This document shows, in pieces, positions 11,243 to 63,770 of a stretch of 64,000 bases of DNA (position 1 is its first letter; each line of letters opens with the position of its first letter). Both the position numbers and the translations under genes were made by a program. Below the pieces are notes generated by a model. It was not told the DNA's origin. It was given only the letters and a program-made list of their open reading frames with translations, and searched no databases. This DNA comes from Calditrichota bacterium (GTDB lineage: Bacteria; Calditrichota; Calditrichia; RBG-13-44-9; J042). The stretch covers positions 36,336 through 100,335 of the forward strand of contig JAADJD010000017.1 in assembly GCA_013150955.1 (NCBI GenBank), written 5' to 3'.

Positions 11243-11406
11243 AAACCCGGATTATGCAATCGCCTACGAATGACACGAATTACCCCAAATAAAACGATAC
11301 CTTGGATTGTGTCTGGATGAAAAAGTGTTCCGGGAGATATTAACAATTTTGTTGATATTTTTGGTTTCAATCGTGTGATTCGCGGTTTAATGCATTAATT
11401 GGGTTT
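11243..11406 (+). repeat. Interspersed inverted-repeat element, full copy (forward)
   Basis: Begins AAACCCGGATTATGCA, contains the centre TTGGATTGTGTCTGG and ends TGCATTAATTGGGTTT. The two ends are imperfect inverted repeats with arms of about 45-50 bp. It fills part of the non-coding gap 11159-11636 and stands 13 bp before a second copy. Confidence 0.85.
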
Positions 11407-11419
11407 ACGATGGCATTTG

Positions 11420-11590
11420 AACCCAGATTATGCAGTAGCCTACGAATTACACGAATTAAAACGAATAAAAATAATAAAATTCCTTTGATGATATCTGGAT
11501 AAAAATGTTTTCCCGGATACATTCGTTATTTTGATGATTTTTTTTTCGATTCATTCGCGTGATTCGCGGTTTAATGCATTATTTGGGTTG
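11420..11590 (+). repeat. Interspersed inverted-repeat element, full copy (forward)
   Basis: Begins AACCCAGATTATGCAGTAG and ends TGCATTATTTGGGTT. Tandem to the copy at 11243 but with the other centre type (TTTTCCCGG instead of GTTCCAGGG). Together they separate the copper operon from the lipoprotein gene at 11637. Confidence 0.85.
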
Positions 11591-11636
11591 AAATTTGCGG
11601 GGATTTGGCAATACCAAAACGACTGGAGAACCTTCC

Positions 11637-12659
11637 ATGGTTTGGAATAGATTCCGGGTTACTGAGTGGCAAATGGTATCCCCCATCGTCGGTATTTTGA
11701 TGGGATTGATGGGGATGGTCTGGCTGTCCTGCCAGAAACCGGGCTCCCAGGAGCCCCGGCTGGATCCGCACCCACCCGAAATCCGGATTGTTTACCCACC
11801 TGACGGCGCCACGTTGACGGATACGGACACCATTCGCGTGGAGGCATCGGATGACGAGGAAATCGAGCGCGTCGAAATTTTCATCGATGGGGAAAAGGTC
11901 GCTGAGCAATCACACCCGCCCTTTCAATACACCTGGTACGTGGGCTACTGGGCGGATGATCAGACCCACACCATTCAGGCCACGGCCTACGACCCGGACG
12001 GCAACCAGGCCAGCAGCGATCCCATTCGAGTAACCATTCCCGCAAGTGCAGCGCTTCAACCGCGGATCTTTGCCCCGCAAAATGATGCCCTCTTCAAAAA
12101 TCCCACGGAAATCCTGCTCCGGTGGTCCAGTCTCCCGGACGCCATTCAGTACGAAGTGCAGGTGGATCGCACCGATGCGTTTGCAAATCCCCAGGAATTT
12201 ACCACCAACACGTACGAATTCTCCTTTACCAACATTCAGGAGGGACTTTTCTACTGGCGGGTTCGGGGGAAAAATTCTCTGGGAAGGCAAAGTCAGTGGA
12301 GTGCTGTGTATCGCTTTGAGATTCGGTTTGTGGTTACCGCGCGGTTTTCGGACATTGAACAAAAGGTGTTTGCCCGGAGCTGTGCATTGAGCAACTGCCA
12401 TACCGGGGATTTTCCGGCGCAGGGATTGGATTTAACGCCGGGACAAGCGTATCAGAACCTGGTGAATGTACCCAGTTTTGAAGTGCCCTCCTGGATGCTG
12501 GTGGAGCCGAACCGCAGCGATCGCAGTTACCTGATTACCAAGCTTGCCGGCGGTGATTCCCTGAAAGGCGGATTAATGCCCTTGAACGGTGCCCCCCTTC
12601 GGCAGGAAGTGATCGATTCCATCCGTGCCTGGATCGACCGCGGTGCGCTGGATAATTAG
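11637..12659 (+). CDS. Lipoprotein with Ig-like/FnIII-like domains and a CX4CH cytochrome-like C-terminus
   Basis: A 340-aa exported protein. The N-terminal hydrophobic segment (15-30) ends in VWLSC, so Cys32 may be lipidated. Residues about 45-135 form a bacterial Ig-like domain (IRIVYPPDGATLTDTDTI ...) and 140-235 a fibronectin-like fold. The C-terminal 100 residues resemble planctomycete-type cytochrome domains: a Cys249-x4-Cys254-His255 site, GLDLTPGQAYQNL, then MPLNGAPL and an AWIDRGAL end. The four-residue spacing departs from the usual CXXCH, so heme attachment is inferred. ATG at 11637 is chosen for GGAGAA upstream, over a TTG at 11595. The gene is bracketed on both sides by tandem interspersed repeats. 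Confidence 0.8.
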   Translation: MVWNRFRVTEWQMVSPIVGILMGLMGMVWLSCQKPGSQEPRLDPHPPEIRIVYPPDGATLTDTDTIRVEASDDEEIERVEIFIDGEKVAEQSHPPFQYTWYVGYWADDQTHTIQATAYDPDGNQASSDPIRVTIPASAALQPRIFAPQNDALFKNPTEILLRWSSLPDAIQYEVQVDRTDAFANPQEFTTNTYEFSFTNIQEGLFYWRVRGKNSLGRQSQWSAVYRFEIRFVVTARFSDIEQKVFARSCALSNCHTGDFPAQGLDLTPGQAYQNLVNVPSFEVPSWMLVEPNRSDRSYLITKLAGGDSLKGGLMPLNGAPLRQEVIDSIRAWIDRGALDN

Positions 12660-12724
12660 CACTCTTCAATAACAGGGCGCATTATTTAGCGCAATTTGCA
12701 GGGACTGCAACAACGATCAGGAAT

Positions 12725-12846
12725 AAACCCAGATTATGCATTAGACCACGAATTTCACGAATTAACACAAATAAAAATAAAATACACTTGATTCTTTCGG
12801 GATGAAAAGGTTTTTCCCGGATGCATTCGTTATTTTGTTGATATGA
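12725..12846 (+). repeat. Interspersed element, right arm missing (forward)
   Basis: Begins AAACCCAGATTATGCATTAG and runs through the TTTTTCCCGG centre to TTTTGTTGATATG, where it abuts the next copy. The right arm is absent. Confidence 0.8.
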
Positions 12847-13015
12847 TCCTAAATTATGCAATAGCCTACGAATTACACGAATTAACACAAATAAAACCAA
12901 TAAAATACATTGGATTGTGTCTGGATGAAAATGTGTTTCAGGGTTTATTTGCGATTTTGTAGGTATTTTTTGTTTTCATTCGTGTGATTTGCGGTTTATC
13001 GCATTATTTGGGTTT
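12847..13015 (+). repeat. Interspersed element, full copy (forward)
   Basis: Begins CCTAAATTATGCAATAGC and ends CGCATTATTTGGGTTT; centre ACATTGGATTGTGTCTGG. With the truncated copy before it, it fills most of the gap 12660-13129. Confidence 0.85.
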
Positions 13016-13059
13016 AACTCGCAACCCACCTTAACCCATCCTAAAATTTCAAAAATTTT

Positions 13060-13088
13060 TGTAAGAAATCCTCCTTCAGGTAATCTAA
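13060..13088 (+). promoter_or_regulatory. Putative ECF-sigma-type promoter
   Basis: TGTAAG (13060-13065) and ATCTAA (13083-13088) are separated by 17 bases, 42 bp before the hydrolase ATG. The pattern resembles TGTAA ... TCTAA promoters of autoregulated ECF sigma factors. The cognate sigma is encoded in the same operon, so autoregulation is inferred. Confidence 0.45.
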
Positions 13089-13129
13089 AGGGTGAGTCAT
13101 CGATAATTTAAACGCAGGAGGATTTCGAT

Positions 13130-14011
13130 ATGTGGCGAATTAAATGGATGTTTCTATTTCTGTGTCTCACCCTGCTCACAGCGCATGCAGGTAGTTCCTC
13201 CGAATACCCATTCCGGGTGGAGGTAAAAGGCAGCGGCCAGCCCGTGCTGTTGATTCCGGGATTGGCCTGCTCCGGTGAGGTGTGGGAACAAACCGTTCAG
13301 GCGTTGCAGGATCGGTACACGTTGCATGTGATCTCCCTGCCGGGATTTGCCGGCCAACCCGCCATGTCGCTAAAGGATGGCTATCTGCCGGTCATTAAAC
13401 GGGCGCTCATTCGCTACATTAAAAATGAACTGTCCGCAAAACCCATCCTCATCGGGCACAGCCTGGGAGGATTTCTGGCTATATCTGTTACCGCTTCGGT
13501 GCCGGATCGGGTGGCGAAGATCGTGGTGGTGGATGCCTATCCCTTTTACACCGCTGCATTCAATCCCCTGGCCACTGCCGAATCCAGCCGGCCCCAGGCC
13601 GAAAATATGCAACAGATGATCTTGCAAACCCCCGATCCCGTTTTCCAGAAACAGCAACAGGCCACCTTAAAAACCATGATCAGCGATTCGAATTTGGTTA
13701 AATTAGCGGTGCGCTGGTCGATGGCATCGGATCGGCCGACCATTGCCCGGGCCATGTACGAAATCATGACCACCGATTTACGGGACAGCGTGGCCAGCAT
13801 TACCTGTCCCATTCTGGTGCTGGGCAGCTGGTACGGCGCCAAAGACGTTGGCATTACCCGGGAAATGGTCGCTGCTAATTTCCAGAACCAGTTTCAGAAA
13901 GCCGAACGGTGCACAGTTAAAATTGCGGAAAAAGCCCGACATTTCATCATGTGGGACGAGCCGGAATGGTTCATCGATCAAGTCCAGGAGTTTCTGGAGC
14001 ATGGAGAATAA
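13130..14011 (+). CDS. Exported alpha/beta hydrolase
   Basis: A 293-aa hydrolase with a signal peptide (MWRIKWMFLFLCLTLLTAHA). The fold is clear: oxyanion region LLIPGLACSGEVW, nucleophile elbow GHSLGG with Ser111, and catalytic His271 in ARHFIMWDEP. The acid residue is probably in the GSWYGAKD strand end. The substrate is unknown; esters or peptides are possible. RBS CAGGAGGATTTCG precedes the ATG. Its last 11 bp overlap the start of the ECF sigma gene, so the two are translationally coupled, implying the hydrolase is part of, or the output of, an envelope-response unit. Confidence 0.85.
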   Translation: MWRIKWMFLFLCLTLLTAHAGSSSEYPFRVEVKGSGQPVLLIPGLACSGEVWEQTVQALQDRYTLHVISLPGFAGQPAMSLKDGYLPVIKRALIRYIKNELSAKPILIGHSLGGFLAISVTASVPDRVAKIVVVDAYPFYTAAFNPLATAESSRPQAENMQQMILQTPDPVFQKQQQATLKTMISDSNLVKLAVRWSMASDRPTIARAMYEIMTTDLRDSVASITCPILVLGSWYGAKDVGITREMVAANFQNQFQKAERCTVKIAEKARHFIMWDEPEWFIDQVQEFLEHGE

Positions 14012-14507
14012 GGAACAGTATTTCTTAGACATTTACCAGCAATTCAAGGATAAACTGTTCCGCCTGTGCCTGGGATTTACCGGCGATACAGGGGAAGCAG
14101 AAAATCTGTTCCAGGAAATCTGGATCAAAATCTGGAATCACCTGGATCAGTTTCGAAACGAAAGTGCCATTGGCACCTGGATATACCGCATTGCCACCAA
14201 TACGGCGTTGCTATATGTCAAACGGCAAAACCGCTATAAGCGGAAGGTTCAATCCATGGAACACCTCCCGGTTGAGCCGGGGGGTGACCCATCAGAAGCC
14301 CAACACATGGAGGAAGCGATTGCCCGGCTGTACCGGGCAATCGCCTCTTTAAAGGAACTGGATCGGATTATCATCGAACTGGTGCTGGAGGGTACCCGAT
14401 ACCGGGACATCGCGGAAATCACCGGTTTGAGCGTGTCCAATGTGGGCGTGCGGATCAACCGCATTAAGAAGGAATTGAAAAACAGGCTTGAGAAAGCAGG
14501 AGAATAG
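14001..14507 (+). CDS. ECF-family RNA polymerase sigma factor
   Basis: A 168-aa group IV sigma factor. Region 2 includes YQQFKDKLFRLCLGF, ENLFQEIWIKIWNHLDQF and GTWIYRIATNTAL; region 4 is LKELDRIIIELVLEG followed by the helix-turn-helix YRDIAEITGLSVSNVGVRI. The start is ATG at 14001, inside the end of the hydrolase gene, the family-length choice. The next gene begins 2 bp after its stop and may encode the anti-sigma factor. A TGTAA/TCTAA promoter-like sequence precedes the operon. Confidence 0.92.
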   Translation: MENKEQYFLDIYQQFKDKLFRLCLGFTGDTGEAENLFQEIWIKIWNHLDQFRNESAIGTWIYRIATNTALLYVKRQNRYKRKVQSMEHLPVEPGGDPSEAQHMEEAIARLYRAIASLKELDRIIIELVLEGTRYRDIAEITGLSVSNVGVRINRIKKELKNRLEKAGE

Positions 14508-14509
14508 AC

Positions 14510-15088
14510 ATGGCCGATGATCTCAAATCCTTACAGGAACTCTGGCAGCGGGGCGGATCCGGAGCCCCGGATGCGTTGAAGTTGCTGCATCAGTTGAACG
14601 CCCTGCGGCGGAAGCACCGGATGGAGAAGATCGGGCTGTTTGTCAGCCTGCTAACCACCATGGCAGTGTTGCTTTTTATTCTTCCGGTGGTCGAGAGCCC
14701 TTATTTTGCCGCAGCCATGGTTTTCATCGGGCTGGCCGTGGTGCTGATTCTGTGGCAGGCCTATCAGATCCGATTTCAGCCGCTGAACGGTGCCCGGCAT
14801 CTTTCCAATAAGGCCTTCCTCGAAAGTTACCTCCAGAACATGGAGAAAAAGGTGCGGTTCACCCGAAAAACCATGTGGGTTTATGCCATTTTGCTGACCC
14901 TGGGATTAAATCTTGCCTATCTGGAGGCGATTCGGTCAATACCAACCATCGGGCGGGTGCTGATCCATCTTGGGATGAGTACATTCCTGATCCTGGGATT
15001 CCGGGTGCTGATTCAAAAGCGGCTGCGGACCTATCAGCAGGAAATCGATCCCCTTTTGAAAACCCTGAGGGATTTGAACGCATCCTGA
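14510..15088 (+). CDS. Putative membrane anti-sigma factor
   Basis: A 192-aa protein with a cytoplasmic N-terminus of about 40 residues (SLQELWQRG ... NALRRKHRMEK) and four hydrophobic segments near 41-60, 64-83, 120-140 and 146-166. I recognise no named domain. The position directly after an ECF sigma gene, with 2 bp spacing, and the short soluble head plus membrane anchor are typical of anti-sigma partners; that role is inference. It has no obvious zinc-binding HxxxCxxC motif. Confidence 0.6.
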   Translation: MADDLKSLQELWQRGGSGAPDALKLLHQLNALRRKHRMEKIGLFVSLLTTMAVLLFILPVVESPYFAAAMVFIGLAVVLILWQAYQIRFQPLNGARHLSNKAFLESYLQNMEKKVRFTRKTMWVYAILLTLGLNLAYLEAIRSIPTIGRVLIHLGMSTFLILGFRVLIQKRLRTYQQEIDPLLKTLRDLNAS

Positions 15089-15138
15089 TGAGAGAAACCG
15101 AGCAATCTCCAGAAACCCGTGCTATCCCCAAAATGTAT

Positions 15139-15309
15139 TAAACCCACATAATGCATTCAACCGCGAATCACGCGAATGAAACCCAAAAATATCAATTAAA
15201 TCGCGAATAAACCTCAAAACAATTTTTTCATACGGATATCGTCCAATGTGTTTTATTTATTTTATTCGTTTTAATTCGTGTAATTCGTAGGCGATTGCTT
15301 GATCTGGGA
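15139..15309 (-). repeat. Interspersed element, full copy (reverse)
   Basis: Reading plus-strand, begins AAACCCACATAATGCATTC and ends GATTGCTTGATCTGGGA, i.e. reverse orientation. Lies in the gap 15089-15453. Confidence 0.85.
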
Positions 15310-15365
15310 TTAATTTTATTCGTGTTCATTCGTGTAATTCGTAGGCGATTGCATCATCCGGGTTT
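15310..15365 (-). repeat. Half element (single arm, reverse)
   Basis: A lone extra arm, TTCGTGTAATTCGTAGGCG ... CATCCGGGTTT, fused to the end of the full copy before it. It repeats the terminal 50 bp of that copy. Confidence 0.75.
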
Positions 15366-15453
15366 ATCTGGCATGGAATTTGAACCCATTTCCGGTGGGA
15401 ATCCTGAAATGCATTTTGGGATTCCCCAAACCGACATACAAGGAGGAAGAGCC

Positions 15454-15792
15454 ATGAAGGCGGTCAAAGCATACATCCGCTGTGAAAAGGCAGAGGAAGT
15501 GGTTTCCGCGCTGGTGGAAAAGGGGATCAGGAGTTTAACGCTGATCAATGTGATGGGCATGGGATTGCTGGCGGATCCCCACACCGCCAAATATTCCATG
15601 GAATGCGTGGAACAGTACTCCAAAGTCGCCAAGCTGGAAATCGTTTGTTCGGACGATCGCGTCCATGAGATCGTGGAAACCATTCGCTCTGCGGCTTACA
15701 CCGGTTTAAAAGGGGACGGGATGATTTACGTAACCCCGGTAGAAATGGCGGTTAAAATCCGCAGTGGCGCAATTGGCGAGGAAGCCGTGTAA
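15454..15792 (+). CDS. PII-like signalling protein, second paralog
   Basis: A 112-aa PII-superfamily protein about two-thirds identical to that at 5616 by direct comparison. The B-loop TGLKGDGMIYV is identical and the T-loop begins VMGMGLLADPHTAKYSMEC. It again lacks the GlnB uridylylation site. The true start is ATG at 15454 with AAGGAGGAAGA; the reading frame extends upstream into the repeat element but has no family match there. It stands alone between repeats and the RseC/CopA cluster, which suggests it serves the second metal system. Confidence 0.88.
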   Translation: MKAVKAYIRCEKAEEVVSALVEKGIRSLTLINVMGMGLLADPHTAKYSMECVEQYSKVAKLEIVCSDDRVHEIVETIRSAAYTGLKGDGMIYVTPVEMAVKIRSGAIGEEAV

Positions 15793-15987
15793 ATGCAGGA
15801 TTGGCGTCAGATTGTAGAATTTTCTTCATTTGAATTTTTGCCCTTTGTAGATTATTATTCAGCGAAATGAAGCGAATGGGGAATAGCAGACGGAATTAAA
15901 GCGCTTCGAACGCGAAACCGGAAAATAAATTTGTGGCATTAATTTTGATTAGTTTTCATTGGGACGGATATAAAGGACGAGGTCATC

Positions 15988-16470
15988 ATGGATCGAGAAG
16001 TTGGCCAGGTGGTGAAGGTCGGGGAAAAAGAGATGGAAATCATGATTCACGCGCCGGCGGGATGCGATTCCTGTTCTGCAAAAGGGGTATGTCACGCGGG
16101 AAGCTCCGATTCCGGTTTCCGGATCATCACCCTGCCACGCATTAACGGTGTTCAACCCGGTCAACAGGTGGTTTTGACCTTTCGCCAGTCATCCAGTCTC
16201 ATTGCGGCAATGATTGTTTTTGTGGTACCCATCCTGTTCGCTCTGATGGGCTATCTGGTTGCGACTACTTTATTCCCCTCCTCGGAGCTCTTCGGTGCAC
16301 TGGGATTAATTGGAGGATTGCTCATTTCGGGTGCGGTGATTTATTTCTTAAATCAAAATTTAAGCCGCTCGAATTTCTTTTTACCCCGGGTGGAAATTCA
16401 AGACCAACCATCCGAATCCCCGGGAATATCCCGGGAGAAAAATGGATTACCACCCATTCACCAAAACTAA
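15988..16470 (+). CDS. RseC/MucC-family membrane protein
   Basis: A 160-aa SoxR-reducing-system/RseC family protein. The cytoplasmic N-terminus has the Cys cluster CDSCSAKGVC (Cys26, 29, 35), followed by two membrane helices (about 70-92 and 98-118) and a short tail. Family members are tied to electron transfer to the membrane (Rnf/SoxR reduction) and to envelope stress. The start is ATG with AAAGGACGAGG upstream. The YHS gene follows 15 bp later, so the two are likely co-transcribed. Confidence 0.85.
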   Translation: MDREVGQVVKVGEKEMEIMIHAPAGCDSCSAKGVCHAGSSDSGFRIITLPRINGVQPGQQVVLTFRQSSSLIAAMIVFVVPILFALMGYLVATTLFPSSELFGALGLIGGLLISGAVIYFLNQNLSRSNFFLPRVEIQDQPSESPGISREKNGLPPIHQN

Positions 16471-16485
16471 GAGGAGGGAACAATC

Positions 16486-16668
16486 ATGGTGAAAGATCTG
16501 GTATGCGGCATGATGGTGGATCAAAAAAATCCACCGGCTCAAACGTTGTACAAAGGCCAGATGTACTATTTTTGCAGCATGGATTGTAAGGTAAAATTCA
16601 GTGAAGATCCCGAAAAGTATTTAAAGGCTCGGGAAAAAGAAGAAAAGGATAAAAAAGCCGAGGATTAA
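16486..16668 (+). CDS. YHS-domain metal-binding protein
   Basis: A 60-aa protein consisting of one YHS domain: DLVCGMMVD (Cys7) and YYFCSMDCKVKFSEDPEKYL with two more Cys, then a charged Lys/Glu tail. YHS (TRASH-like) domains bind copper or other soft metals and often accompany CopA ATPases as separate polypeptides or N-terminal modules. Probably a cytoplasmic copper sensor or chaperone. RBS AGAGGAGGG precedes the ATG. Confidence 0.9.
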   Translation: MVKDLVCGMMVDQKNPPAQTLYKGQMYYFCSMDCKVKFSEDPEKYLKAREKEEKDKKAED

Positions 16669-16731
16669 CAGCGGAAACGGAAATCTGGTGTGTGAGAGGT
16701 TTCTGGAAAGGAATGCGTAAAGGGGATTCCG

Positions 16732-17298
16732 ATGATTTGTCCAAATTGCGGAAAAATTAACGAAAACGATGCCCGATTCTGCAACTATTGCGGCATCAGC
16801 TTAAAAAAGAAACAGCAGAAGGTGTGTCCCAATTGCGGGGAAGAGAATCTACCGGAAGCACGATATTGCGTGTCCTGTGGAACCCGAATTGCCAGTGAAG
16901 CGCGATCCCCAAAAAATCGGGGGAAACGATCAAAAGGCCGGGAGCAGCCGGTGCATTCTTCGCGGACATTTTTACTCACACTGGCGGCGATTGTGGGATT
17001 GTTTTTTGTGGCCATTCTGCTGGTGAAACAATCGGATCAAACGAACTATTCCCGAAATGCATCCAGTCCGGTGGTGAATCCAACCGTTGCCGACCCGGCA
17101 ACCGAGGCACTGGTGGTTGCGGTGGCGGAAAAATTTATCTGTGCCTGTGGGGGATGTCCCCAACTGGATCTGGTCGACTGCGACTGCGATGCCGCAACCC
17201 GGCAAAAGAACTACATTCGCGAGCAATTGCAGCAGGGGCGTTCCATGGAAGAAGTGATTGCCATGGTGAAAACCACCTTCGGTGGGTTCAAAGAGTGA
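16732..17298 (+). CDS. Double zinc ribbon / membrane / CcmH-like cysteine domain protein
   Basis: A 188-aa protein with an unusual architecture. Two zinc ribbons occupy 1-50 (Cys3/6/17/20 and Cys32/35/46/49). A basic linker leads to one membrane helix (80-98), and the outer part ends in CACGGCPQLDLVDCDCD (Cys137, 139, 142, 150, 152) followed by NYIREQLQQGRSMEEVIAM. That last segment resembles the periplasmic redox motif and helix of the CcmH protein encoded at 34167. A thiol or heme-handling role outside the membrane, with a cytoplasmic zinc-ribbon tether, is inferred. The start is ATG with AAAGGGG. It lies 111 bp before copA. Confidence 0.75.
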   Translation: MICPNCGKINENDARFCNYCGISLKKKQQKVCPNCGEENLPEARYCVSCGTRIASEARSPKNRGKRSKGREQPVHSSRTFLLTLAAIVGLFFVAILLVKQSDQTNYSRNASSPVVNPTVADPATEALVVAVAEKFICACGGCPQLDLVDCDCDAATRQKNYIREQLQQGRSMEEVIAMVKTTFGGFKE

Positions 17299-17409
17299 GC
17301 ATCTGACGGCCAGAAAGGCTCAAGTGTGAACAGGATTGAAAGAAACAGAACCTTTTTCCATGATGCGTAACATCTTTCGGATGCGCGTATCCAATTGAGG
17401 AACACGGCA

Positions 17410-19953: not shown

Positions 19954-19974
19954 ACGTAAGTTCATCCTGTACTG

Positions 19975-20008
19975 AAAAAAGGCGCACCAAATGGATGCGC
20001 CTTTTTTA
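19975..20008 (+). terminator. Intrinsic terminator after copA
   Basis: AAAAAAGGCGCA and TGCGCCTTTTTT form a perfect stem over CCAAATGGA, ending in a T-run. The A-run on the other side would let it work in both directions. Confidence 0.95.
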
Positions 20009-20194
20009 TCGGCGAAAGTCTGACTCCGCAGGGGTTCCTGTCCGGGCCTTCATCCGCTCGCAGCAAACTTTGTCAAACGACCCAGTTTACCTGAACGGAA
20101 TGTGTATTCTGGAACAAAAATTTTTTATTTTTATTTTTTTAACGCCCTGGACATCCGAAATTAGCGATGAACAAAAAGAGAAAAGGGAGATCCG

Positions 20195-20833: not shown

Positions 20834-20992
20834 AAACCCAAATAATGCACCAAACCACGAATCACGCGAATAAATTCTAAAAATATCAACAAAATAGCGA
20901 ATATATCCGGGAAAACATTTTCATCCAGTTAGAATCCAGTTTTATTGGTGTCCATTCGTGTAATTCGTGGTTCTCATGCATAATCTGGGTTT
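20834..20992 (-). repeat. Interspersed element, full copy (reverse)
   Basis: Begins AAACCCAAATAATGCACC and ends TGCATAATCTGGGTTT on the plus strand. Part of the non-coding gap 20750-21271. Confidence 0.85.
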
Positions 20993-24863: not shown

Positions 24864-24870
24864 CCATCAA

Positions 24871-24958
24871 TCCAGATTATGCATACGCCTGTGAATTACA
24901 CGATTGAATCCTAAAAAGATCCCCAAAACCAATTGTGTAATTCGTCGGTTGCAGATTT
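24871..24958. repeat. Deleted interspersed element (arms only)
   Basis: A left end (TCCAGATTATGCATACGCC) and a second arm (GTGTAATTCGTCGGTTGC) remain, with the centre missing. Confidence 0.6.
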
Positions 24959-27078: not shown

Positions 27079-27234
27079 TTAACCCGGGATTATGCTGTAA
27101 GCCACGAAAGTCACGAATGAGCACAAATAAAACATTGTGTCTGTGAGAAAATGTGTTCCAGGGTTTATTCGCGATTTTGTAGATATTTTTTGGTTTCATT
27201 CGCGTGATTCGCGGTTTAATGCATAATTTGGGTT
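27079..27234 (+). repeat. Interspersed element, full copy (forward)
   Basis: Begins TTAACCCGGGATTATGCTG and ends TGCATAATTTGGGTT. Lies between the peptidase and hydrolase genes. Confidence 0.82.
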
Positions 27235-27250
27235 GAATAAATTGTGGAGC

Positions 27251-42520: not shown

Positions 42521-42682
42521 TAAACCAGATTATGCATTAACCTACGAATTACACGAATTAACACCAATATAAATAATAAAATGCACCTGATTCTATCTGG
42601 ATGAAAATGTTTCCCGGAATATACTCGCGATTTTGTTGATATTATTCGAATTCATTCGTGTGACTCGTGGTTTAATGTATCT
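42521..42682 (+). repeat. Interspersed element, full copy (forward)
   Basis: Begins TAAACCAGATTATGCATTAA and ends GACTCGTGGTTTAATG; the centre is the TTTCCCGG type. The rest of the gap to 42910 shows no gene I can support. Confidence 0.82.
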
Positions 42683-45110: not shown

Positions 45111-45287
45111 AAACCCAGATTACGCAGTAGCCTACGAATGACACGAATGAACACCAATAAAAAATAAAAATAATAAAATGCACTGGATTCTATCTGAATG
45201 AAAATGTTTTCCCGGGTATATTCGCTATTTAGTTGTTTTTTTCGAAATCATTCGCGTGATTCGTGGTTTAACGCTTTATTTGGGTTA
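45111..45287 (+). repeat. Interspersed element, full copy (forward)
   Basis: Begins AAACCCAGATTACGCAGTAG and ends GCTTTATTTGGGTT; a slightly long copy due to extra AAAAATAA in the left arm. It starts 3 bp after the coxE stop. Confidence 0.85.
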
Positions 45288-46516: not shown

Positions 46517-46688
46517 AAAATCCAAATAATGCGTTAAACCGCGAATCACGCGAATGAAACCAAGACATATCCATAAAATTGCGAATAAACCACAAAACAC
46601 ATTTTCATCCAGATATCATCCAATGGATTTTATTATTCTTATTCGTTTTAATTCGTGTAATTCGCAGACTATTGTATAATCTGGGTTT
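46517..46688 (-). repeat. Interspersed element, full copy (reverse)
   Basis: Begins AAAATCCAAATAATGCGTTA and ends TGTATAATCTGGGTTT. Separates xdhC from the hicA gene. Confidence 0.85.
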
Positions 46689-46739: not shown

Positions 46740-46994
46740 TCATTTAATCAATTTTAACCTGCGAAGGTCTTCTTCTTTCCAACCAATATCCTTAAATAAG
46801 CTTTGAAGGGTTTTAGGTCCATATGTTTTCTTTGGGTGGTGATGAATTGTTACGCGTTTACCGTTTGGTTTAAAATAAACCTGGATTGCTCCACGTTTGA
46901 CATCACGTTGCCAGCCGTCTTTTTCAAGAGCTTTTATTAATTCCTTTGAAGTGATATTTTTTAATTGATCCCAGATGTGTTTTGGAAAGGCCAT
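46740..46994 (-). CDS. hicA: HicA-family toxin
   Basis: An 84-aa HicA-like protein with ELIKALEKDGWQRD, KRVTIHHHPKKTYGP and DIGWKEEDLRRLKLIK. It belongs to the subgroup whose central motif reads KRGAIQVY instead of the classical GSH, so the catalytic His of canonical HicA is not in its usual place; the HHH of the next strand may substitute. The gene starts directly after the hicB stop. The region is clearly more AT-rich than its neighbours, suggesting transfer. Confidence 0.85.
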   Translation of the reverse strand: MAFPKHIWDQLKNITSKELIKALEKDGWQRDVKRGAIQVYFKPNGKRVTIHHHPKKTYGPKTLQSLFKDIGWKEEDLRRLKLIK

Positions 46995-47276
46995 TTAGGC
47001 ATATATGAACATTTTTTCGATATCTTTTTCATTTTCATTAAATTCCTTTACATCTTCTTCATCCAAAACGATATGAATTGGAATGGATTCACCATGTTTT
47101 ATAATGGAATCAATATATGCCGTCAAGGCGTCGGCCATTAGTGCCTCAGCTTCGGCCTTCGTTTTGCCATAAACATGCACCCCTTTCAATGCAGGGGTGT
47201 ATCCATGATAACCTTCACCATCCGCTTCGATAATGACTGGTATTTCTAATTTTAATTTCCTTCTCCTGCCGAACAT
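46995..47276 (-). CDS. hicB: HicB-family antitoxin
   Basis: A 93-aa HicB-like antitoxin with the partial RNase H fold: PVIIEADGEGYHGYTPALKG and KTKAEAEALMADALTAYIDS. No extra DNA-binding domain is evident beyond the C-terminal acidic tail, so autoregulation is uncertain. It is upstream of hicA in the minus-strand operon, with zero spacing. RBS AGGTAGAG precedes the ATG at 47276. Confidence 0.87.
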   Translation of the reverse strand: MFGRRRKLKLEIPVIIEADGEGYHGYTPALKGVHVYGKTKAEAEALMADALTAYIDSIIKHGESIPIHIVLDEEDVKEFNENEKDIEKMFIYA

Positions 47277-47491: not shown

Positions 47492-47603
47492 AATTTGTAG
47501 GCTATTGCATAATCTGGATTCATTCGCGTCATATGCGGTTTAAGGCTTTATTTTTATCCATGTTAATTCGTATAATTCACAGGCGAATACCAGATTTGGG
47601 TTT
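47492..47603 (-). repeat. Composite of three half elements
   Basis: Successive arms TTTGTAGGCTATTGCATAAT, CATTCGCGTCATATGCGGTT and TTAATTCGTATAATTCACAG, ending GATTTGGGTTT, with no intact centre. Confidence 0.65.
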
Positions 47604-49664: not shown

Positions 49665-49786
49665 GGTTGCGGCTGGAATCGTAACTGGCAAACCTTGCCC
49701 GGCGATCGAAGATTTGAATCTGCACGCAAGTCCCAGTGTTCCCACATTCGAACACGAACTCAGCGAACTAAAGACTATCTATAAAC

Positions 49787-50003
49787 CTGTGGATTACAGG
49801 AATTAACGCGAATAAAAATAATGAAATACAATTGATCCCAAATAAAGCGTTAAACCGCGAATCACGCGAATGAAACCAAAAATATCTACAAAATCTCGAA
49901 TAAACCCTGGAACACATTTTCATTCAGACACAATCCAATGTATTTTATTGGTTTTATTTGTGTTAATTCGTGTCATTCGTAGGCCACTGCTTAATCTGGG
50001 TTA
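49787..50003 (-). repeat. Half element plus full interspersed element (reverse)
   Basis: A half arm (AGGAATTAACGCGAATAAA) at 49787-49832, then a full copy from ATCCCAAATAAAGCGTTAAA to CACTGCTTAATCTGGGTT. Confidence 0.8.
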
Positions 50004-52465: not shown

Positions 52466-52636
52466 TTACCCAAATTATGCAATAAACCGCGAATCAAGCG
52501 AATAAAACCAAAAAATATCTACAAAATCGCGAATAAACCCTGGAACACATCTTCATCCAGACACAATCCAATGTATTTTATTGGTTTTATTTGTGTGAAT
52601 TCGTGTCATTCGTAGGCTATCGCATAATCTGGGTTT
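52466..52636 (-). repeat. Interspersed element, full copy (reverse)
   Basis: Begins TTACCCAAATTATGCAATAA and ends CGCATAATCTGGGTTT. In the gap 52325-52752. Confidence 0.85.
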
Positions 52637-54343: not shown

Positions 54344-54427
54344 TAAACCCCGATTATGCAATAGACTACGAATGACACGAATGACCACGAATAAACCCAG
54401 ATGACGCATTAGAACCACGAATGTGTT
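54344..54427 (+). repeat. Two half elements in tandem
   Basis: Left ends AAACCCCGATTATGCAATAG and AAACCCAGATGACGCATTAG, each only about 40 bp, directly before a full copy. Confidence 0.7.
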
Positions 54428-54600
54428 GATCCCAGATTATGCATTAGAACCGCGAATTTCACGAATTAATGCCAATAAAAATAATAAGATGCATTAGATT
54501 CTATCTGAATGAAAAGTTTTTCCTGGATATGTTCGTTATTTTGTTGATTTTATTCGAATTCATTCGTGTGATTCGCGGTTTAATGCATTATTTGGGTTGA
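54428..54600 (+). repeat. Interspersed element, full copy (forward)
   Basis: Begins TGATCCCAGATTATGCATTA and ends TGCATTATTTGGGTTG; TTTTTCCTGG-type centre. Confidence 0.85.
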
Positions 54601-54655
54601 TTTTTTTCGAATTCATTCGCGTGATTGCCGGTTTATTGCACTTTTTAGATTAAAA
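54601..54655 (+). repeat. Half element (single arm)
   Basis: A right arm CATTCGCGTGATTGCCGGTT ... TTTTTAGATT appended to the full copy, making a four-part tract in the gap 54215-54759. Confidence 0.65.
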
Positions 54656-54734: not shown

Positions 54735-54759
54735 AAACAGGTGCAATTTTATTAAACAA

Positions 54760-55707: not shown

Positions 55708-55822
55708 AATACACTCCTTGTACTTTTTTTCATGAATATGCCCAAATTTTCCATTTTTGTCAAGAAACGGTTGAAATTCTGCAGGTTTATGCAGTCCCCT
55801 TCCTGTCACCAATGGATAACTT

Positions 55823-57832
55823 TCACCGACGGAGCAGCACCCACTTGAACAACAGCACCGGGCTAAAAAACAGCAACAGGTTCAGTACTGCGGTGATAAA
55901 AACATTGAGCGCCGGTGGTGATTGGGTGGATTGATAGGTTACCGCAAAAGCCCCGCAGCAGGCCTGGGTTTCCCCAATGGTAAATGAATAGTAGTGCGAT
56001 TCCACAAACTGATTATCTGTATCCCATGCCAGTACCTTGTATTTAATGGTGGTACCGGTAGGAGCACCGGGAATGTCTGCACCAAATATGTACGGCGAAA
56101 CGGGCTGCATGATAAGCGTGTCCTGCCGGGTGGTCGCACCAGAAAATTCATAGTAGAGCTTAACCACGGTCACCGTATCTTCATCCACTGCCGACGCATG
56201 AACGGTATAGGGCCCGGCGGTATCGTCCGTATCCTCCGGCTTCTTGACCACCGCAACCAGCGGTTTGTCGGTAATGGCTTCGTTGACGTTCAGACGGCCT
56301 TCTAAAAGCAGTTCACCTTCAAAATCGGGAATGAAATCCACCGCACCAAACAACCGATATTTCACCTCGCGCCAGTTGGTATTGGGATAATAGTATGCCC
56401 AGATTAACCCGGCGGCCCCGGCCACGTGAGGGGTAGCCATGGACGTACCGCTTAACGACTGGTACGTATTGGAAGGAGTGGTGGAATAAATATCCTCACC
56501 CGGTGCAGCCAGATCCACCGTCTGATTCCCCCAGTTGGAAAAGGAAGCCATTGCATCCCGATCCGTGGAGGCCGCCACGGCAATGACGTTTTCCACCTCA
56601 TAATTCGATGGATAATTGGGCGAATCGTCATTGTCTTTACTTTCGTTACCCGCGGCGGCTACAAAAAGCACGCCTTTGTCGCGGGCGTATTCGATCGCAT
56701 CTTTCAACGTCTGCGAGAAACCGCCCCCACCCCAGGAATTGTTGGTGATTAACGCCCCGTTATCCGCAGCGTAGATGATGGCCTCCGCAGCATCGGCAGT
56801 GGAACCGGAACCATTGGCGGACAGAAACTTCAACGCCATCAGCTTCACCGTCCAGTTTACGCCAACCACCCCGCGATTGTTGTTGCCCACGGCGCCCACC
56901 GTTCCCGCCACATGGGTACCATGACGATTATCGTCCATGGGATCGGGATCGTTGTTGATAAAATCGTATCCATGCACATCATCCACGTAACCGTTGTTGT
57001 CGTCATCCTGATTATTATTGGGAATTTCACCGGGATTTGTCCAGATGTTGTCCGCCAGATCCGGGTGATTGTAATCGATCCCGGTATCGATGATGGCAAT
57101 GAGGATTTCCTTACGGCCGGTGGTTTTGTTCCATGCTTCCGGAGCATCGATATCCGCATCGTTTTTACCGCCGGTTTGTCCCGTATTGTGCAATCCCCAT
57201 AGCCGAGAAAAATCTGGATCGTTGGGAACTGTCAACGCATACACCCGGTAATTGGGTTCTGCGTACAGCACATCCGGGCGTTCCCGACAGGCCTTCAGGA
57301 TGCTGTCCAGGTTTTGGGTGGTGGGATATTTGTAAAGCATGGCATTCAATTTTCGGATGCGCTTCACGGATTTAAGATTGAGTTGCTGGGCGATGCTAGC
57401 CATGGCGGCAACTTCTGCCGTGGGTTTAAATTTCACCAGAATTTCCCCCGGAATGATTTCCGGTTCCAGCGGGGCTTTTAACACGGCCGGTTGTTCCGCT
57501 TCTCCGGAGGGAGTATCCTGGGCCATGGCCTGTCCGGGCTTTACGGTGACCTTCTGTTCCAGCTCCACGTATTGGATGATTTTCAACCGCTCCAGGTCTT
57601 CAACCGTCTGGTTTAACCGACCCGTATCGGCAGGCCGGAAACGGTAAACCTGTAATTGCGGAATGGACTTTTCCAGGATCAGACCAAAGCGCTGTTGCAA
57701 ACTATCCAGCTCCTGCTGGGTGGGCCGCTCCTTAAATTTGATTAATAACCGCACCGATTCCGTTTGTTGGCTGGGCAATGCGCTGAGTAGAAACAATACA
57801 CCCAGGATCCACAAAAATTGAATGGATTTCAT
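55823..57832 (-). CDS. Secreted subtilase with duplicated N-terminal prodomain and C-terminal anchor
   Basis: A 669-aa S8 serine protease. After a signal peptide (LWILGVLFLLSALP) come two related prodomain-like units (about 26-95 and 127-200). The catalytic triad is Asp249 (IIDTG), His304 (HGTHVAG) and Ser464 (GTSMATPH), with oxyanion Asn396. A beta-sandwich domain (540-620) follows. The end has ACCG (624-627), a hydrophobic helix and a terminal RR, like a CTERM-type sorting signal. It probably degrades extracellular protein from the cell surface. Confidence 0.93.
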   Translation of the reverse strand: MKSIQFLWILGVLFLLSALPSQQTESVRLLIKFKERPTQQELDSLQQRFGLILEKSIPQLQVYRFRPADTGRLNQTVEDLERLKIIQYVELEQKVTVKPGQAMAQDTPSGEAEQPAVLKAPLEPEIIPGEILVKFKPTAEVAAMASIAQQLNLKSVKRIRKLNAMLYKYPTTQNLDSILKACRERPDVLYAEPNYRVYALTVPNDPDFSRLWGLHNTGQTGGKNDADIDAPEAWNKTTGRKEILIAIIDTGIDYNHPDLADNIWTNPGEIPNNNQDDDNNGYVDDVHGYDFINNDPDPMDDNRHGTHVAGTVGAVGNNNRGVVGVNWTVKLMALKFLSANGSGSTADAAEAIIYAADNGALITNNSWGGGGFSQTLKDAIEYARDKGVLFVAAAGNESKDNDDSPNYPSNYEVENVIAVAASTDRDAMASFSNWGNQTVDLAAPGEDIYSTTPSNTYQSLSGTSMATPHVAGAAGLIWAYYYPNTNWREVKYRLFGAVDFIPDFEGELLLEGRLNVNEAITDKPLVAVVKKPEDTDDTAGPYTVHASAVDEDTVTVVKLYYEFSGATTRQDTLIMQPVSPYIFGADIPGAPTGTTIKYKVLAWDTDNQFVESHYYSFTIGETQACCGAFAVTYQSTQSPPALNVFITAVLNLLLFFSPVLLFKWVLLRR

Positions 57833-58021
57833 AGAGCCCCCTTTACTGCTTTGGTTGGTGTGATTCCGTCCTGGAAGTTTTTCCTGAAAGGCGCTTGAAT
57901 ATTAGAGAATAAATTCGCCAAAATCAAGCCACATTACCCGGTGAACCAAATTTTATAGCCAGGTAGAATACGATGAATTCCTTCGCACGGGCAAATCAGC
58001 GGGATTTTCTTTCAGGATTCC

Positions 58022-58056
58022 CCCGGAACGTTCGGTGGATATGAGAACGTTCCGGG
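58022..58056 (-). terminator. Perfect hairpin after rocD
   Basis: CCCGGAACGTTC pairs perfectly with GAACGTTCCGGG over an 11-base loop, 11 bp beyond the rocD stop. No T-run on the minus strand, so termination may need Rho or the stem may protect the mRNA end. Confidence 0.6.
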
Positions 58057-58066
58057 AGACTACCAA

Positions 58067-59269
58067 TCACAGGGTGGTTAATACTTTTTCGATACGGGGC
58101 ATGGCCCAATCGATCTCCTCACGGGTAATGACCAGTGGTGGAGCGAAGCGGATAACATGTTCGTGGGTTTCTTTAGAGAGAATGCCCTCAGCAGCCAGGG
58201 CTTCACAGAAACGCCGTGCGCCACCGGCCTCCTTCTTCAATTCCACGCCGATCAACAATCCCTTGCCACGGATTTCTTTCACATGCGGGCTTTTGATTTT
58301 TTGTAACTGGCCCATGAAATATTTGCCCATTTCCAGTGCGCGTGCCGGAAGATTCTCTTCCTCCAGTACCTCCAGTGCCGCACGTCCAATGGCTGCTGCC
58401 AGGGGATTCCCTCCAAATGTACTGCCGTGATCACCCGGCTTAAACACCCCCATTAATTCCTCGGTTGCCAGAAACGCCGACACCGGATAAAATCCACCCG
58501 ACAGTGCCTTCCCCACAATCAAACCATCGGGGTGAACGTCTTCGTAATGGTGGGCGAACATTTTCCCCGTCCGTCCAAGTCCGGTCTGGATCTCATCCAC
58601 AACCAGCAGAATCCCATGTTCCCGGCAAACCTGTTCCGCGTTTTTAAGATAGCCCTCCGGGGGCACAATAATGCCGCCTTCCCCCTGAATGGGTTCCACT
58701 AAAAAGGCAGCGGTTTTGGGGGTAATGGCCTGTTTTAATGCTTCGATGTCTCCAAAGGGAATGATTTTGAATCCCGGTGTCAGGGGGCCAAATCCATCCC
58801 GATATTGATCTTCCGTGGAAAAACTGATGATGGTGATGGTGCGGCCGTGAAAATTATTGGCACATACGATGATTTCGGCCTGATTGTCCGGAATGCCTTT
58901 CACTTTATAGGCCCACTTCCGAATGGCCTTCAATGCCGTTTCCACCGCTTCGGCACCCGAATTCATGGGCAACACCTTGGGCATTCCAGAAAGTTGGGCC
59001 AGTTTTTCATAAAACAATCCCAGTTGATCGTTTCGAAATGCCCGTGATGTTAAGGTTAATCGCCGCGCCTGTTCGGCCACGACCGCTGCAATCCTGGGAT
59101 GACAGTGTCCCTGATTGACTGCAGAATAAGCACTTAAACAATCCAGATACTTGTTACCTTCCACATCCCAGACCCAGACGCCTTCTCCCCGTGTTAATAC
59201 CACATCCAGGGGATGATAATTATTGGCACCGTACTGCCGTTCCAGTGCAATATAGTCCTGTGCCTTCAT
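58067..59269 (-). CDS. rocD: Ornithine-oxo-acid aminotransferase
   Basis: A 400-aa PLP-dependent class III aminotransferase. Lys254 ([12 protein letters not shown]) is the Schiff base residue and Asp225 ([11 protein letters not shown]) contacts the pyridine nitrogen. The start [13 protein letters not shown] and [13 protein letters not shown] match RocD. It converts ornithine and 2-oxoglutarate to glutamate semialdehyde and glutamate. RBS GAGGAGG precedes the ATG. Acetylornithine transaminase is the less likely alternative. mdh is upstream on the same strand (89 bp). Confidence 0.94.
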
Positions 59270-59309
59270 CCGTCCTCCTCACCGTTAATGGTTTCGCCAG
59301 ATAAACGTC

Positions 59310-59336
59310 AGGGGAGAAGCTTTCCGCCTCTCCCCT
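59310..59336 (-). terminator. Hairpin between mdh and rocD
   Basis: AGGGGAGA and TCTCCCCT form a stable stem. On the minus strand it follows mdh, with only a weak T stretch (GTTTAT). Confidence 0.5.
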
Positions 59337-59358
59337 GCCCATCGTTTCCGTTATTGGG

Positions 59359-60336
<978 letters not shown>

Positions 60337-60545
60337 TCAGATTTTAAATTCCCAAAATCCGTTTTTACGGGTGATTCGACGAATGCGAATGCGGAGTGGG
60401 ATTGAAAAAGCCGTCGGGTATACGGCTCGTAGTGCTTTATTCCAGGAAACGGAAAAATACTCAATTGAACACTATTTGAAAGGCACCTTTAATCCAGATT
60501 TTTCATTTGCCGACGCGTTCTGAGAATTACCACAGACAAAGATCA

Positions 60546-60714
60546 TTCCAGATTATGAATTCGCCTACGAATTACACGAATTCACACAAATAAAACCTAT
60601 AAAATACATTGGATTGTGTTTGGATGAAAATGTGTTCCAGGGCTTATTCGCGATTTTGCAGATATTTTTTGGCTTCATTCGCGTGATTCGTGGTTTCATG
60701 CATTATTTGGGTTA
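60546..60714 (+). repeat. Interspersed element, full copy (forward)
   Basis: Begins TTCCAGATTATGAATTCGCC and ends TGCATTATTTGGGTTA, with the ACATTGGATTGTGTTTGG centre. It overlaps the stop end of the VIT/VWA gene by a few bases and fills part of the gap 60283-60711. Confidence 0.85.
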
Positions 60715-63072
60715 ATAAATGATTTTCGATCGCAGATTCTGGCGTACTTCCGCTGTTAAATCTTTGATATCTTCTGCAGCGTTCAATACGGTTTTAAAAA
60801 CGAAACCAAACGTTTCGCTCTGTTCTTCCTCAGCGGCTTTTGCAGCTAAAATCCACTTCTCGATCGCCTGCCCGACGAGTCGGCGTAACAGAGAGTCGTA
60901 CCGACGAAGAATGTAATTCCAGATGCGCCTTTGATCTTTGGTAAATCGGGATTGTTTCTGAATCAAAAACGCCATCAGTTTCTTTAAGTTGGATTCAAAT
61001 CCCTGAAGAGATTGTTCGTCTGCTTCCATCTGCGCCAGCAGCCATCCCGCCACAATCAACGATTCCCAGACGGAATTTCGAGGATGAGAAAAAGAGAAGC
61101 GGCCATCCATTTTCTGATAGAGAAACATATCGCACACCACATCTCGAGGTGTTTCATTCTGATAGTGATATACCACAGGCTGAAAACGACAGGTCTGATC
61201 CAAATCAAACAAAACGTCTGCGGAACTATAAAACTTATCTTCACACCACATGTCTGGAAAGTCCACCGGTACCACCTGCACCCGGGAAATCTCCTGAATT
61301 TTTTCATCCCGCTCCCAGAGGGCAATCCAGTCCGTATACGGCGATGGCAATTGTAGATCCAGCGCCAGCTGCTCTAAAAAGGCCGGGGAAACCGCAAGAT
61401 CTTCACTTTCGGGAGAGGCTCGATTCTCCAGCAATTGCTTTCCCCAGAATTTCAACAAACTGTTGTGCACCGCATCGGTTAAATGCTGTTTTTGCACGGG
61501 GATTCGAAGCGTTTCTCCATTTTCCGTATAAAGCAGCAGGGCATCTATCCGGGGCGTTTCACCATTGATTTCAAAAAATAGCAATCGGGTTGTATCCTCG
61601 GCCAGGGGAAATGGCAACATGGGCAGCCATCCGGTTAGCTGGATGGCCTTGCCGGACACTTCCATGGCCATTTGGCGTACCCAGGAAACCCCCAGATTTT
61701 GAAACTGCATATTGACCACTCGTCGGATATCTTCTCCGGGATAAATATACCTGGCCATGACAGGCACCACCCGATGAATGGCCTGAAAGAGCTCCTGATT
61801 GACCACCGTATCGATGCCAAACAGGATCATGCGTCCCTTAAAATTGGATTTTTTAATGGTGCGGGCGATTTCCCATTCGTTTCCAACCATTCCATCTGTT
61901 AACAAAACAATTACGGGCTCCCGGTGGGTATCCGGGTCTCGAAACTGGCGAAGCGCCAGATGCACGGCGGGGAGCAATTCGGTTCCACCTAAGGATTCCA
62001 GTCCATTTAACCAGCGATCGGCCATCTGGATGGTTTTATCGGTCACGGGCACCCATTCGCGCTTCCAGGGATGCAAATCACTCTCAAAAGCAATTAATTG
62101 AAACCGATCGGCAGCACTTAACTTCCGCAGGCACAATTGAACCGCCTTGCGTGTGGTTTTCAGTTTCACACCGGCCATGGATCCAGAAATATCAATCAGA
62201 AAAACAAGATCCTGCGGCCGTTTCTGGCGTTGGGTGCGTGTTTCCGGTGTAAGTGTTGTAGCCAGTATGGACGTATCGTCATAAGTTAAAATGGAGTAGG
62301 TGCTTTCTTGCACCGGTTTTACTTTTATTTTTAAGACGATGTCTTTATTGGCTTTAAGCTCATCCCCCATGAAGGCGTGATAGGAATGGTCGGAAGCAAG
62401 TTGAATCCGAAAGGGATGGGACGGGCTTTCGATGCTTTCGACGGGCAGGTCTCTGGAAATCTCGAAATACGCCTGAACAGAATATGGGGTGGGATCAAAC
62501 GTGAAGGGTGGTGTGATTTCGTCCGCATCGGGCACCTGGGTGGTTGGAAATGCCCACCCCAGGCCTTCACCGACGTCAAGGGGTTCCCCCGGAATGTATC
62601 GCGGCCCGACCACGGTCGGTGTGCGCAGTAAGATTTCCCCATGCTGTATCTCCAAAACCTGCGATAAATGGAAGTCCACCAGCACGCACTCACCGGGTGC
62701 CAGATTTCCAATAGACAGTGAAAAGACATTGCTCCTGTGCTGTTTCAGGTGGACTGCAAAATCCCCCTGTTCCAGATAGGTTTCGTACTCTTTCCGGGCA
62801 TCTTCCCTTTTCACCACACGGGAGGTGATTCGTTTTCCAGAGAGAAAGACGTCGAACGCTTCCAGAATTTGATCCGATGAGAGGGGAAACGTATACACAA
62901 CCTCCAGGGGATTGCGAGCGGTGTTTTCAAAGATTTGGCGGATGTGAAGTTGCGCAACCGGCCAGGTGACCTTTCCCCTTACCTGCCAGCGACGCAGGGC
63001 AATCTCCGAAGCACCGGCTTCCATTTCTTTGCCGGCAACGCTTAACGATGGACGCACTTCATCTTTCATCAT
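60712..63072 (-). CDS. VIT and von Willebrand A domain protein
   Basis: A 786-aa protein without a signal peptide. The VIT domain (about 20-145) has LHIRQIFENTARNPLEVVYTFPL. The VWA domain has MIDAS motif DISGS (294-298) and continues to about 460. The C-terminal 300 residues are helical with no family I recognise. Inter-alpha-trypsin-inhibitor-like VIT-VWA proteins in bacteria have no firm function. ATG 63072 is chosen for GGAGG seven bases upstream; its ATGATGA overlaps the stop of the MerR gene, so they are coupled. Confidence 0.88.
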   Translation of the reverse strand: MMKDEVRPSLSVAGKEMEAGASEIALRRWQVRGKVTWPVAQLHIRQIFENTARNPLEVVYTFPLSSDQILEAFDVFLSGKRITSRVVKREDARKEYETYLEQGDFAVHLKQHRSNVFSLSIGNLAPGECVLVDFHLSQVLEIQHGEILLRTPTVVGPRYIPGEPLDVGEGLGWAFPTTQVPDADEITPPFTFDPTPYSVQAYFEISRDLPVESIESPSHPFRIQLASDHSYHAFMGDELKANKDIVLKIKVKPVQESTYSILTYDDTSILATTLTPETRTQRQKRPQDLVFLIDISGSMAGVKLKTTRKAVQLCLRKLSAADRFQLIAFESDLHPWKREWVPVTDKTIQMADRWLNGLESLGGTELLPAVHLALRQFRDPDTHREPVIVLLTDGMVGNEWEIARTIKKSNFKGRMILFGIDTVVNQELFQAIHRVVPVMARYIYPGEDIRRVVNMQFQNLGVSWVRQMAMEVSGKAIQLTGWLPMLPFPLAEDTTRLLFFEINGETPRIDALLLYTENGETLRIPVQKQHLTDAVHNSLLKFWGKQLLENRASPESEDLAVSPAFLEQLALDLQLPSPYTDWIALWERDEKIQEISRVQVVPVDFPDMWCEDKFYSSADVLFDLDQTCRFQPVVYHYQNETPRDVVCDMFLYQKMDGRFSFSHPRNSVWESLIVAGWLLAQMEADEQSLQGFESNLKKLMAFLIQKQSRFTKDQRRIWNYILRRYDSLLRRLVGQAIEKWILAAKAAEEEQSETFGFVFKTVLNAAEDIKDLTAEVRQNLRSKIIY

Positions 63073-63509
63073 GATGAGTCCTCCAATAATTTTAAAATTT
63101 CGGGTAAATGATTTTCTAAAAAACGCCGCGCTTCTGGAGTTAATGGCCAGTGGACGAATAGCTCCACGCCTGCTGCCAGCTGGATTCGTACCCCGGTTTG
63201 CCGGGGATAGCGATCTTCTGGCCAATCGTGCTGAATCGGATGGGCCGAAAGACGATCAGTTACTGGCTGATCAGGTGCCGAATAGAGTATTTGCTCCAGA
63301 CTCTCCTGATTTAAAATAAATTGAATCTCCTTTAATGAGTAGCGCGCTTTCTGTAGTTGGCGGATTCGTTCCAGTCGCCGCAGGTGTTCCTCGGAATATT
63401 CGTAATTTTTTCCTTTCCCTTTTGGTGGGGGCAGCAATCCGATCTGTGTATAATAATAAATCGTGCGTCGATTGAAGCCACTCCGTTGTATCAATTCCTG
63501 AATTTTCAT
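63069..63509 (-). CDS. MerR-family transcriptional regulator
   Basis: A 146-aa regulator. The N-terminal winged helix is MKIQELIQRSGFNRRTIYYY and the coiled dimer helix ERIRQLQKARYSLKEIQFIL. The C-terminus has no Cys, so it is not a metal or redox sensor of the MerR/CueR kind. ATG 63509 gives the family start with GAGGTGAT. It leads an operon with the VIT/VWA gene and has a palindromic site at its own promoter, suggesting autoregulation. Confidence 0.9.
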   Translation of the reverse strand: MKIQELIQRSGFNRRTIYYYTQIGLLPPPKGKGKNYEYSEEHLRRLERIRQLQKARYSLKEIQFILNQESLEQILYSAPDQPVTDRLSAHPIQHDWPEDRYPRQTGVRIQLAAGVELFVHWPLTPEARRFLENHLPEILKLLEDSS

Positions 63510-63522
63510 AATCACCTCAGTA

Positions 63523-63539
63523 TTACAGTTACACTGTAA
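63523..63539. promoter_or_regulatory. Palindromic operator TTACAGT-N3-ACTGTAA
   Basis: Seven-base perfect arms, with GTTAC/GTAAC also inside. It overlaps the -10 region and the likely transcription start of the MerR gene, 14 bp before its ATG. Probable site for the MerR protein itself. Confidence 0.65.
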
Positions 63540-63566
63540 CATAAATAATTCTTTTTTGCAAATCAA
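63538..63566 (-). promoter_or_regulatory. Promoter of the MerR/VIT-VWA operon
   Basis: On the minus strand TTGATT (63566-63561) and TATGTT (63543-63538) are separated by exactly 17 bp. Confidence 0.6.
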
Positions 63567-63652
63567 GTAAAAAATTTACTCCAACCGATTTTCAGTTGGC
63601 CGTGGGCAGTTAGCAGTATGCAGTTGGCATGGGCGGAGCTGGGCCAGCAGGT

Positions 63653-63770
63653 GATTGAACCTAAAAATACATTAAAACACGAATCACGGGAATGAAACCA
63701 AAAAATATCTACAAAATCGCGAATAACCCTAGAACACATTTTCATCCAGATACAAACCAATGTATTTTTC
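63653..63770 (-). repeat. Interspersed element interrupted by an insertion sequence
   Basis: Begins GAACCTAAAAATACATTAAA and matches other reverse copies to CCAATGTATTTT, where the match stops abruptly and unrelated sequence with short palindromes begins. A microrepetitive GCAGTTRGC stretch precedes it (63594-63640). Confidence 0.7.

Follow-up and report, generated by a model that had tools for sequence, protein, structure and literature searches.

The dense intergenic repeats of the window (the whole stretch of 64,000 nucleotides analysed here) would represent a gene-less MITE that is moved by the resident IS1380 transposase, or by a close relative since lost, and that inserts at WTNAW, a reading to which we assign a probability of roughly 0.93. 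That the repeats form a transposable element is shown by target duplications and nested insertions, while shared tips and target sites argue strongly that it works like a MITE moved by IS1380, with the IS1380-family transposase of the same genome as the most likely agent.

Copies in the window and across the genome

The original prediction of a dense repeat family is borne out, as the end motif matches 28 times in the window at up to three mismatches (0.8 expected by chance) and a search with a profile built from the copies returned 26 pieces on both strands. These comprise 13 full copies, one nearly full copy, two clearly truncated copies and 10 half or short pieces, in agreement with the predicted minimum of 14 full and two truncated copies in both orientations. 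The pieces, in window coordinates, are as follows.

11243..11406 (+), full MITE copy, profile match 140.8 bits
11419..11590 (+), full MITE copy of the TTTTCCCGG type with the 5-bp duplication TTGAA at each side, profile match
12725..12845 (+), truncated MITE copy, left two-thirds, adjoining the next copy, profile match
12845..13015 (+), full MITE copy, 160.7 bits
15140..15311 (-), full MITE copy, 145.2 bits
15309..15365 (-), left-arm half copy adjoining the full copy 15140..15311, profile match
20834..20992 (-), full MITE copy, 137.9 bits
20990..21048 (-), left-arm half copy, profile match
24868..24935 (+), left-arm half copy, profile match
27079..27235 (+), full MITE copy, 126.3 bits
37419..37579 (-), full MITE copy, 137.3 bits
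42399..42453 (+), partial copy, 23 bits
about 42521..42680 (+), nearly full MITE copy, right tip lost, 146.0 bits
45111..45285 (+), full MITE copy with the 5-bp duplication TTAAA at each side, missing in the orthologous gap of G001, profile match
46518..46688 (-), full MITE copy, missing in the orthologous gap of G001, profile match
47509..47601 (.), two opposed short pieces, profile match
49779..49837 (+), partial copy, profile match
49834..50003 (-), full MITE copy, missing in the orthologous gap of G001, profile match
52466..52636 (-), full MITE copy, 169.0 bits
52634..52692 (-), left-arm half copy, profile match
54347..54395 (+), left half of outer copy, profile match and nested-insertion analysis
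54429..54597 (+), full MITE copy nested in the outer copy with the 5-bp duplication TTGAT at each side (C51 90764-90932), profile match and nested-insertion analysis
54596..54647 (+), right half of outer copy, profile match and nested-insertion analysis
60544..60714 (+), full MITE copy, 167.0 bits
63662..63769 (-), truncated MITE copy, 77.7 bits

The window belongs to a 4.07-Mb draft genome (66 contigs, 99.7% complete), of which 1.256 Mb (31%) was searched with the profile. Further copies, as the prediction required, are found throughout: the searched DNA holds 405 non-overlapping pieces, 187 of them full, which account for 3.7% of its bases, and full copies occur at a near-uniform density of 12-18 per 100 kb on every contig. 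Extrapolated to the whole genome, these numbers correspond to some 1,300 pieces, of which about 600 are full copies, and short-motif counts over the entire genome agree with this figure (577 right-end matches against 29 for a reversed control, and 529 left-arm matches against none in the control). Young identical copies are probably under-counted in the draft, because copies of the MITE or of IS1380 interrupt the assembly. C17 and C29 each start within a MITE copy, and further breaks inside copies of either element are seen at the ends of C12, C13, C14, C18, C19, C21, C27, C35 and C44. Plasmid and phage records gave no match to the MITE consensus. A composite element, in which two distant half copies would surround a transposase, was also considered and rejected, since only scattered pairs with no cargo pattern were present.

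The consensus is 165 bp long, which is also the peak of the length distribution, and runs from CCCAGATTATGCA to TGCATTATTTGGG. Its terminal inverted repeats have the tips CCCAGATTATGCATTAG and CCCAAATAATGCATTAA and continue into imperfect arms of about 45 bp, so that the end sequences and the arm length of about 45-50 bp given earlier hold. The copies contain no ORF of note, as had been expected of an element that encodes no protein. The two predicted centre types are recovered as two overlapping subfamilies on the first principal component of 188 full copies, about 63 with TTTTCCCGG and 125 with GTTCCAGGG. Divergence among these copies has a pairwise median of 21% and a median to the nearest copy of 9.5% (minimum 1.8%), so that most MITE copies are not recent.

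Target duplications and nested insertions

With the element boundaries set as CCC...GGG, 65 of the 188 full copies are flanked by identical 5-mers (shuffled mean 14.1, maximum 26 in 1,000 shuffles), and duplications of other lengths show no excess among the same copies. The excess identity is confined to the flank positions -5/+1, -3/+3 and -1/+5, with T at -4/+2 and A at -2/+4 in almost every case; together these patterns indicate a 5-bp duplication with the consensus WTNAW, such as TTTAT, TTTAA, TTAAA or ATAAA.

In 44 full copies, removal of the copy and of one 5-bp duplication rejoins the flanks into a continuous second member of the family, with an exact duplication in 20 of the 44. The nested copies stand in either relative orientation and often occupy one A+T-rich spot of the left arm (model position 50-56). 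Many half copies are therefore remnants of one outer element that was interrupted when another copy inserted into it; the half copies reported originally are present, but many of them are not independent. High copy number, intergenic position, palindromic form and clustering are features that would also fit REP/BIME-type palindromes moved by a RAYT (IS200/IS605-like) transposase. IS200/IS605-type chemistry is not expected to give exact 5-bp target duplications, however, and these are present here, together with tips that match a DDE-type IS1380 element, which makes such an origin extremely improbable.

The nested insertions also served as empty sites, because the intergenic DNA of G001, a genome of the same genus whose syntenic DNA is 68-79% identical, is too diverged for the 5-bp site to be read. 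The proposed comparison of orthologous sites thus succeeded in part: the elements at window positions 45111, 46518 and 49834 are absent from the corresponding G001 gaps, but the exact 5-bp site is not legible there. Left-arm matches number 529 in the present genome and one in G001, and the expansion is taken as a lineage-specific burst. The single G001 element (C15:2432-2752, L153) has arms about 90% identical to those of the MITE (60 bp on the left, 48 bp on the right) and ATAAT at each side, while its centre is wholly different and longer.

Also in the window, two small adjacent ORFs (46740-47276, minus strand) lie between two XdhC-family genes; the upstream ORF shows a weak resemblance to HicB that stays below the Pfam cut-offs, and on inspection by eye the downstream one looks HicA-like. 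The orthologous G001 gap is only about 160 bp long and does not contain this pair.

A resident IS1380-family element

The genome contains one match to the IS1380 transposase domain PF13701 (2e-40), on contig C18, where the gene runs off the contig start. This transposase is assigned to the NCBIfam family IS1380 (NF033539) at 219 bits, the curated cut-off being 180, and as assembled (G000:C18:1-1400, L076) it is frameshifted relative to intact relatives; solved structures gave no sequence match to it. A genome search with the IS DNA located four left ends, on C18, C27, C21 and C13, with the same sequence over 86 bp, and a 95% copy at C8. The IS DNA further overlaps the ends of five other contigs by 28-33 bases, and these five carry the right end, identical except for one position. 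The IS measures about 1.46 kb and occurs in five or more near-identical copies, presumably the reason for the assembly breaks at them.

The IS tips are CCCAGATTACGCAATAGA on the left and CCCAGATTACGCATTAGAG on the right, summarised as CCCAGATTACGCAWTAGA; next to the IS ends stands the 5-mer TTTAA in seven cases, and TTAAA and ATAAT also occur there. At the left end on C18, an 8-bp repeat of the tip stands in front and is preceded by TTTAT. Two IS copies lie in or directly beside MITE copies (L197, L203). Relatives of the transposase in other bacteria, at up to 62% identity, have CCCAGATTNNNCATTAG-like tips and 5-bp duplications such as ATTAT, ATTAA, TTCAA, TTCAT, TTTAT, ATAAA and TTTAA. Based on this comparison, the tip sequence and the duplication rule are common to the MITE, the resident IS and independent IS1380 elements.

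The MITE and the resident IS are alike in their outer tips (CCCAGATTAYGCAWTAG), their 5-bp WTNAW duplications and their target sites, and differ in that the MITE has no transposase gene and that its inner arms and centre are unmatched in the IS. The match is limited to about the outer 17 bp, and an origin of the MITE by internal deletion of the resident IS is accordingly not supported. Of the other DDE transposases (seven PF01609 loci in the genome, one being the IS1380 gene), none qualifies as a partner, since the MITE copies near them are scattered and do not form the ends of those loci.

It is quite possible, at well short of even odds, that a different and now lost IS1380 relative with CCCAGATTATGCA tips amplified the MITE, and that the present IS came later and at most cross-mobilises it. 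The left tip reads TATGCA in the MITE and TACGCA in the IS, and G001 has one same-arm element but no match to this transposase. The MITE copies are also the older, most of them being 10-20% diverged while the IS ends are near-identical, and the main burst may therefore have used an older IS1380 relative. Nevertheless, the outer tips are still nearly identical, the IS copies use the same targets, including sites in or beside MITE copies, and young identical MITE copies may be under-represented, as the starts of C17 and C29 illustrate. Mobilisation by the resident transposase stays the preferred reading, to which the close lost relative belongs as a variant.

The element is short (below about 500 bp) and gene-less, has inverted repeats and a target duplication of fixed length, and shares its ends with an autonomous element, and with these properties it qualifies as a MITE. 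The family is new, its kind of mobile DNA ordinary, and its copy number unusually high. Of the two explanations offered originally, the abundant non-autonomous mobile element is the one upheld by target duplications, nested insertions, absence at orthologous G001 sites and the matching resident IS.

Position relative to genes and the hairpin

Genes were called with a home-made hexamer caller (916 genes, 82% coding). No MITE cluster of the 233 extends more than 25 bp into a predicted gene, as had been noted for the window copies, and the 21,199 WTNAW sites inside genes hold no cluster. An element is present in 69% of convergent, 26% of tandem and 26% of divergent gaps, and per 100 WTNAW sites outside elements there are 9.3, 4.4 and 1.9 clusters, respectively. 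Within tandem gaps the copies lie nearer to the upstream stop (median 70 bp) than to the downstream start (184 bp), and they show no orientation bias relative to genes (59 vs 66).

The preference for convergent over divergent gaps would also be expected if selection kept the element as a bidirectional terminator or as a hairpin at mRNA 3' ends, with mobility accounting only for its origin. The consensus RNA folds into one long hairpin of -53 kcal/mol (z -6.6), and its near-symmetry would permit function in both orientations. Pairing across the 188 copies nevertheless equals that of shuffled copies: 85.2% of cells are paired compared with 85.1% after shuffling of the 3' partners, and 66 double changes occur in paired columns where 72 are expected. 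This absence of covariation holds for the arms, the centre and both subfamilies, RNAalifold found no consensus structure in the 188 copies, and selection for an RNA or cruciform is thus not supported; the compensatory arm changes that had been looked for do not exceed shuffling. In addition, copies are freely lost or truncated, and selection against promoter insertions would leave the same gap bias. Maintenance as a terminator or 3'-end hairpin is therefore improbable, and the related suggestion of a chromosomally selected transcript-end, recombination or nucleoid site is set aside for lack of arm covariation and of orientation bias and given the one related copy in G001. The stem shows no detectable selection after insertion, though some copies at gene ends may have been co-opted later on.

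Under mobilisation by IS1380, we take the distribution to reflect insertion, after which copies that had landed in genes and promoters were lost. The IS1380 transposase, or its close lost relative, would recognise the MITE tips and place the element in a WTNAW site, where the staggered gap, once repaired, would leave the 5-bp duplication. Selection would then remove insertions in genes and promoters, leaving copies mainly at gene 3' ends, where the survivors would drift neutrally. The family illustrates how widely an element with no gene can multiply in a compact bacterial genome when its copies settle at gene 3' ends.

An inner-arm module shared with other elements

The inner arms (positions 18-60) hold a phased CACNNATT module with three CACNNAT(T) units at 9-11 bp, which can be written as the repeat CCACNNATTN(1-2)CACNNATTN(1-2)CACNNAT (for example at window 12853-12895) and is not part of the resident IS1380. 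The motif occurs in 48 of 385 genomes, many of the same class, while the reversed pattern has few matches in all; several genomes have tens of matches to a version of their own, such as CACGAAT, CACGGAT or CACTGAT. Such loci include L206 and L252-L277 in G027 and L209 and L224-L251 in G016. In G027, which is of the same class, the motif lies inside a different MITE of 123 bp, whose tips are TGAGTTCA...TGGACTCA; 15 of its 25 copies are flanked by an exact duplication of 4 bp (shuffled mean 1.6). The literature library searched contains none of these strings.

As the tips are unrelated, different transposases presumably move these miniature elements, which have the inner arm in common. Either shared descent with swapped tips or a common host factor may explain this. 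It seems rather unlikely, though conceivable, that miniature elements of several transposase families have each made use of the module as a functional site, which might for instance bind a common host protein or form an end structure through which copies at gene 3' ends are tolerated. If true, reuse of the module would explain high copy numbers across the class and in some other lineages, and a phased arm motif common to otherwise unrelated MITEs poses a testable question.

Comparison with known systems

A match to a described family of known function had been named as grounds for refuting the original prediction. An Rfam search of the window gave no match, and a literature search found no paper with the arm strings or describing an IS1380-type MITE. 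The text of a 2024 review of prokaryotic MITEs makes no mention of IS1380 (PMC10969869), and the present family would add an IS1380-linked one to those covered there.

Like the prokaryotic MITEs Correia, ERIC, Chunjie and Nezha (PMC10969869), the element is short, gene-less and intergenic, has inverted repeats, a target duplication and a strong RNA fold, and occurs in nested and truncated copies; it differs from them in its IS1380-type tips and target rule. The review quotes 711 ERIC copies in Photorhabdus and more than 120 Correia copies in Neisseria gonorrhoeae, and about 600 full copies would be near the top of this range (PMC10969869). The TIMEs, miniature elements derived from Tn3 (PMC4133298), are likewise gene-less, with inverted repeats and AT-rich 5-bp duplications, but they have Tn3-type ends of 38-40 bp, whereas the element described here has tips of the IS1380 type.
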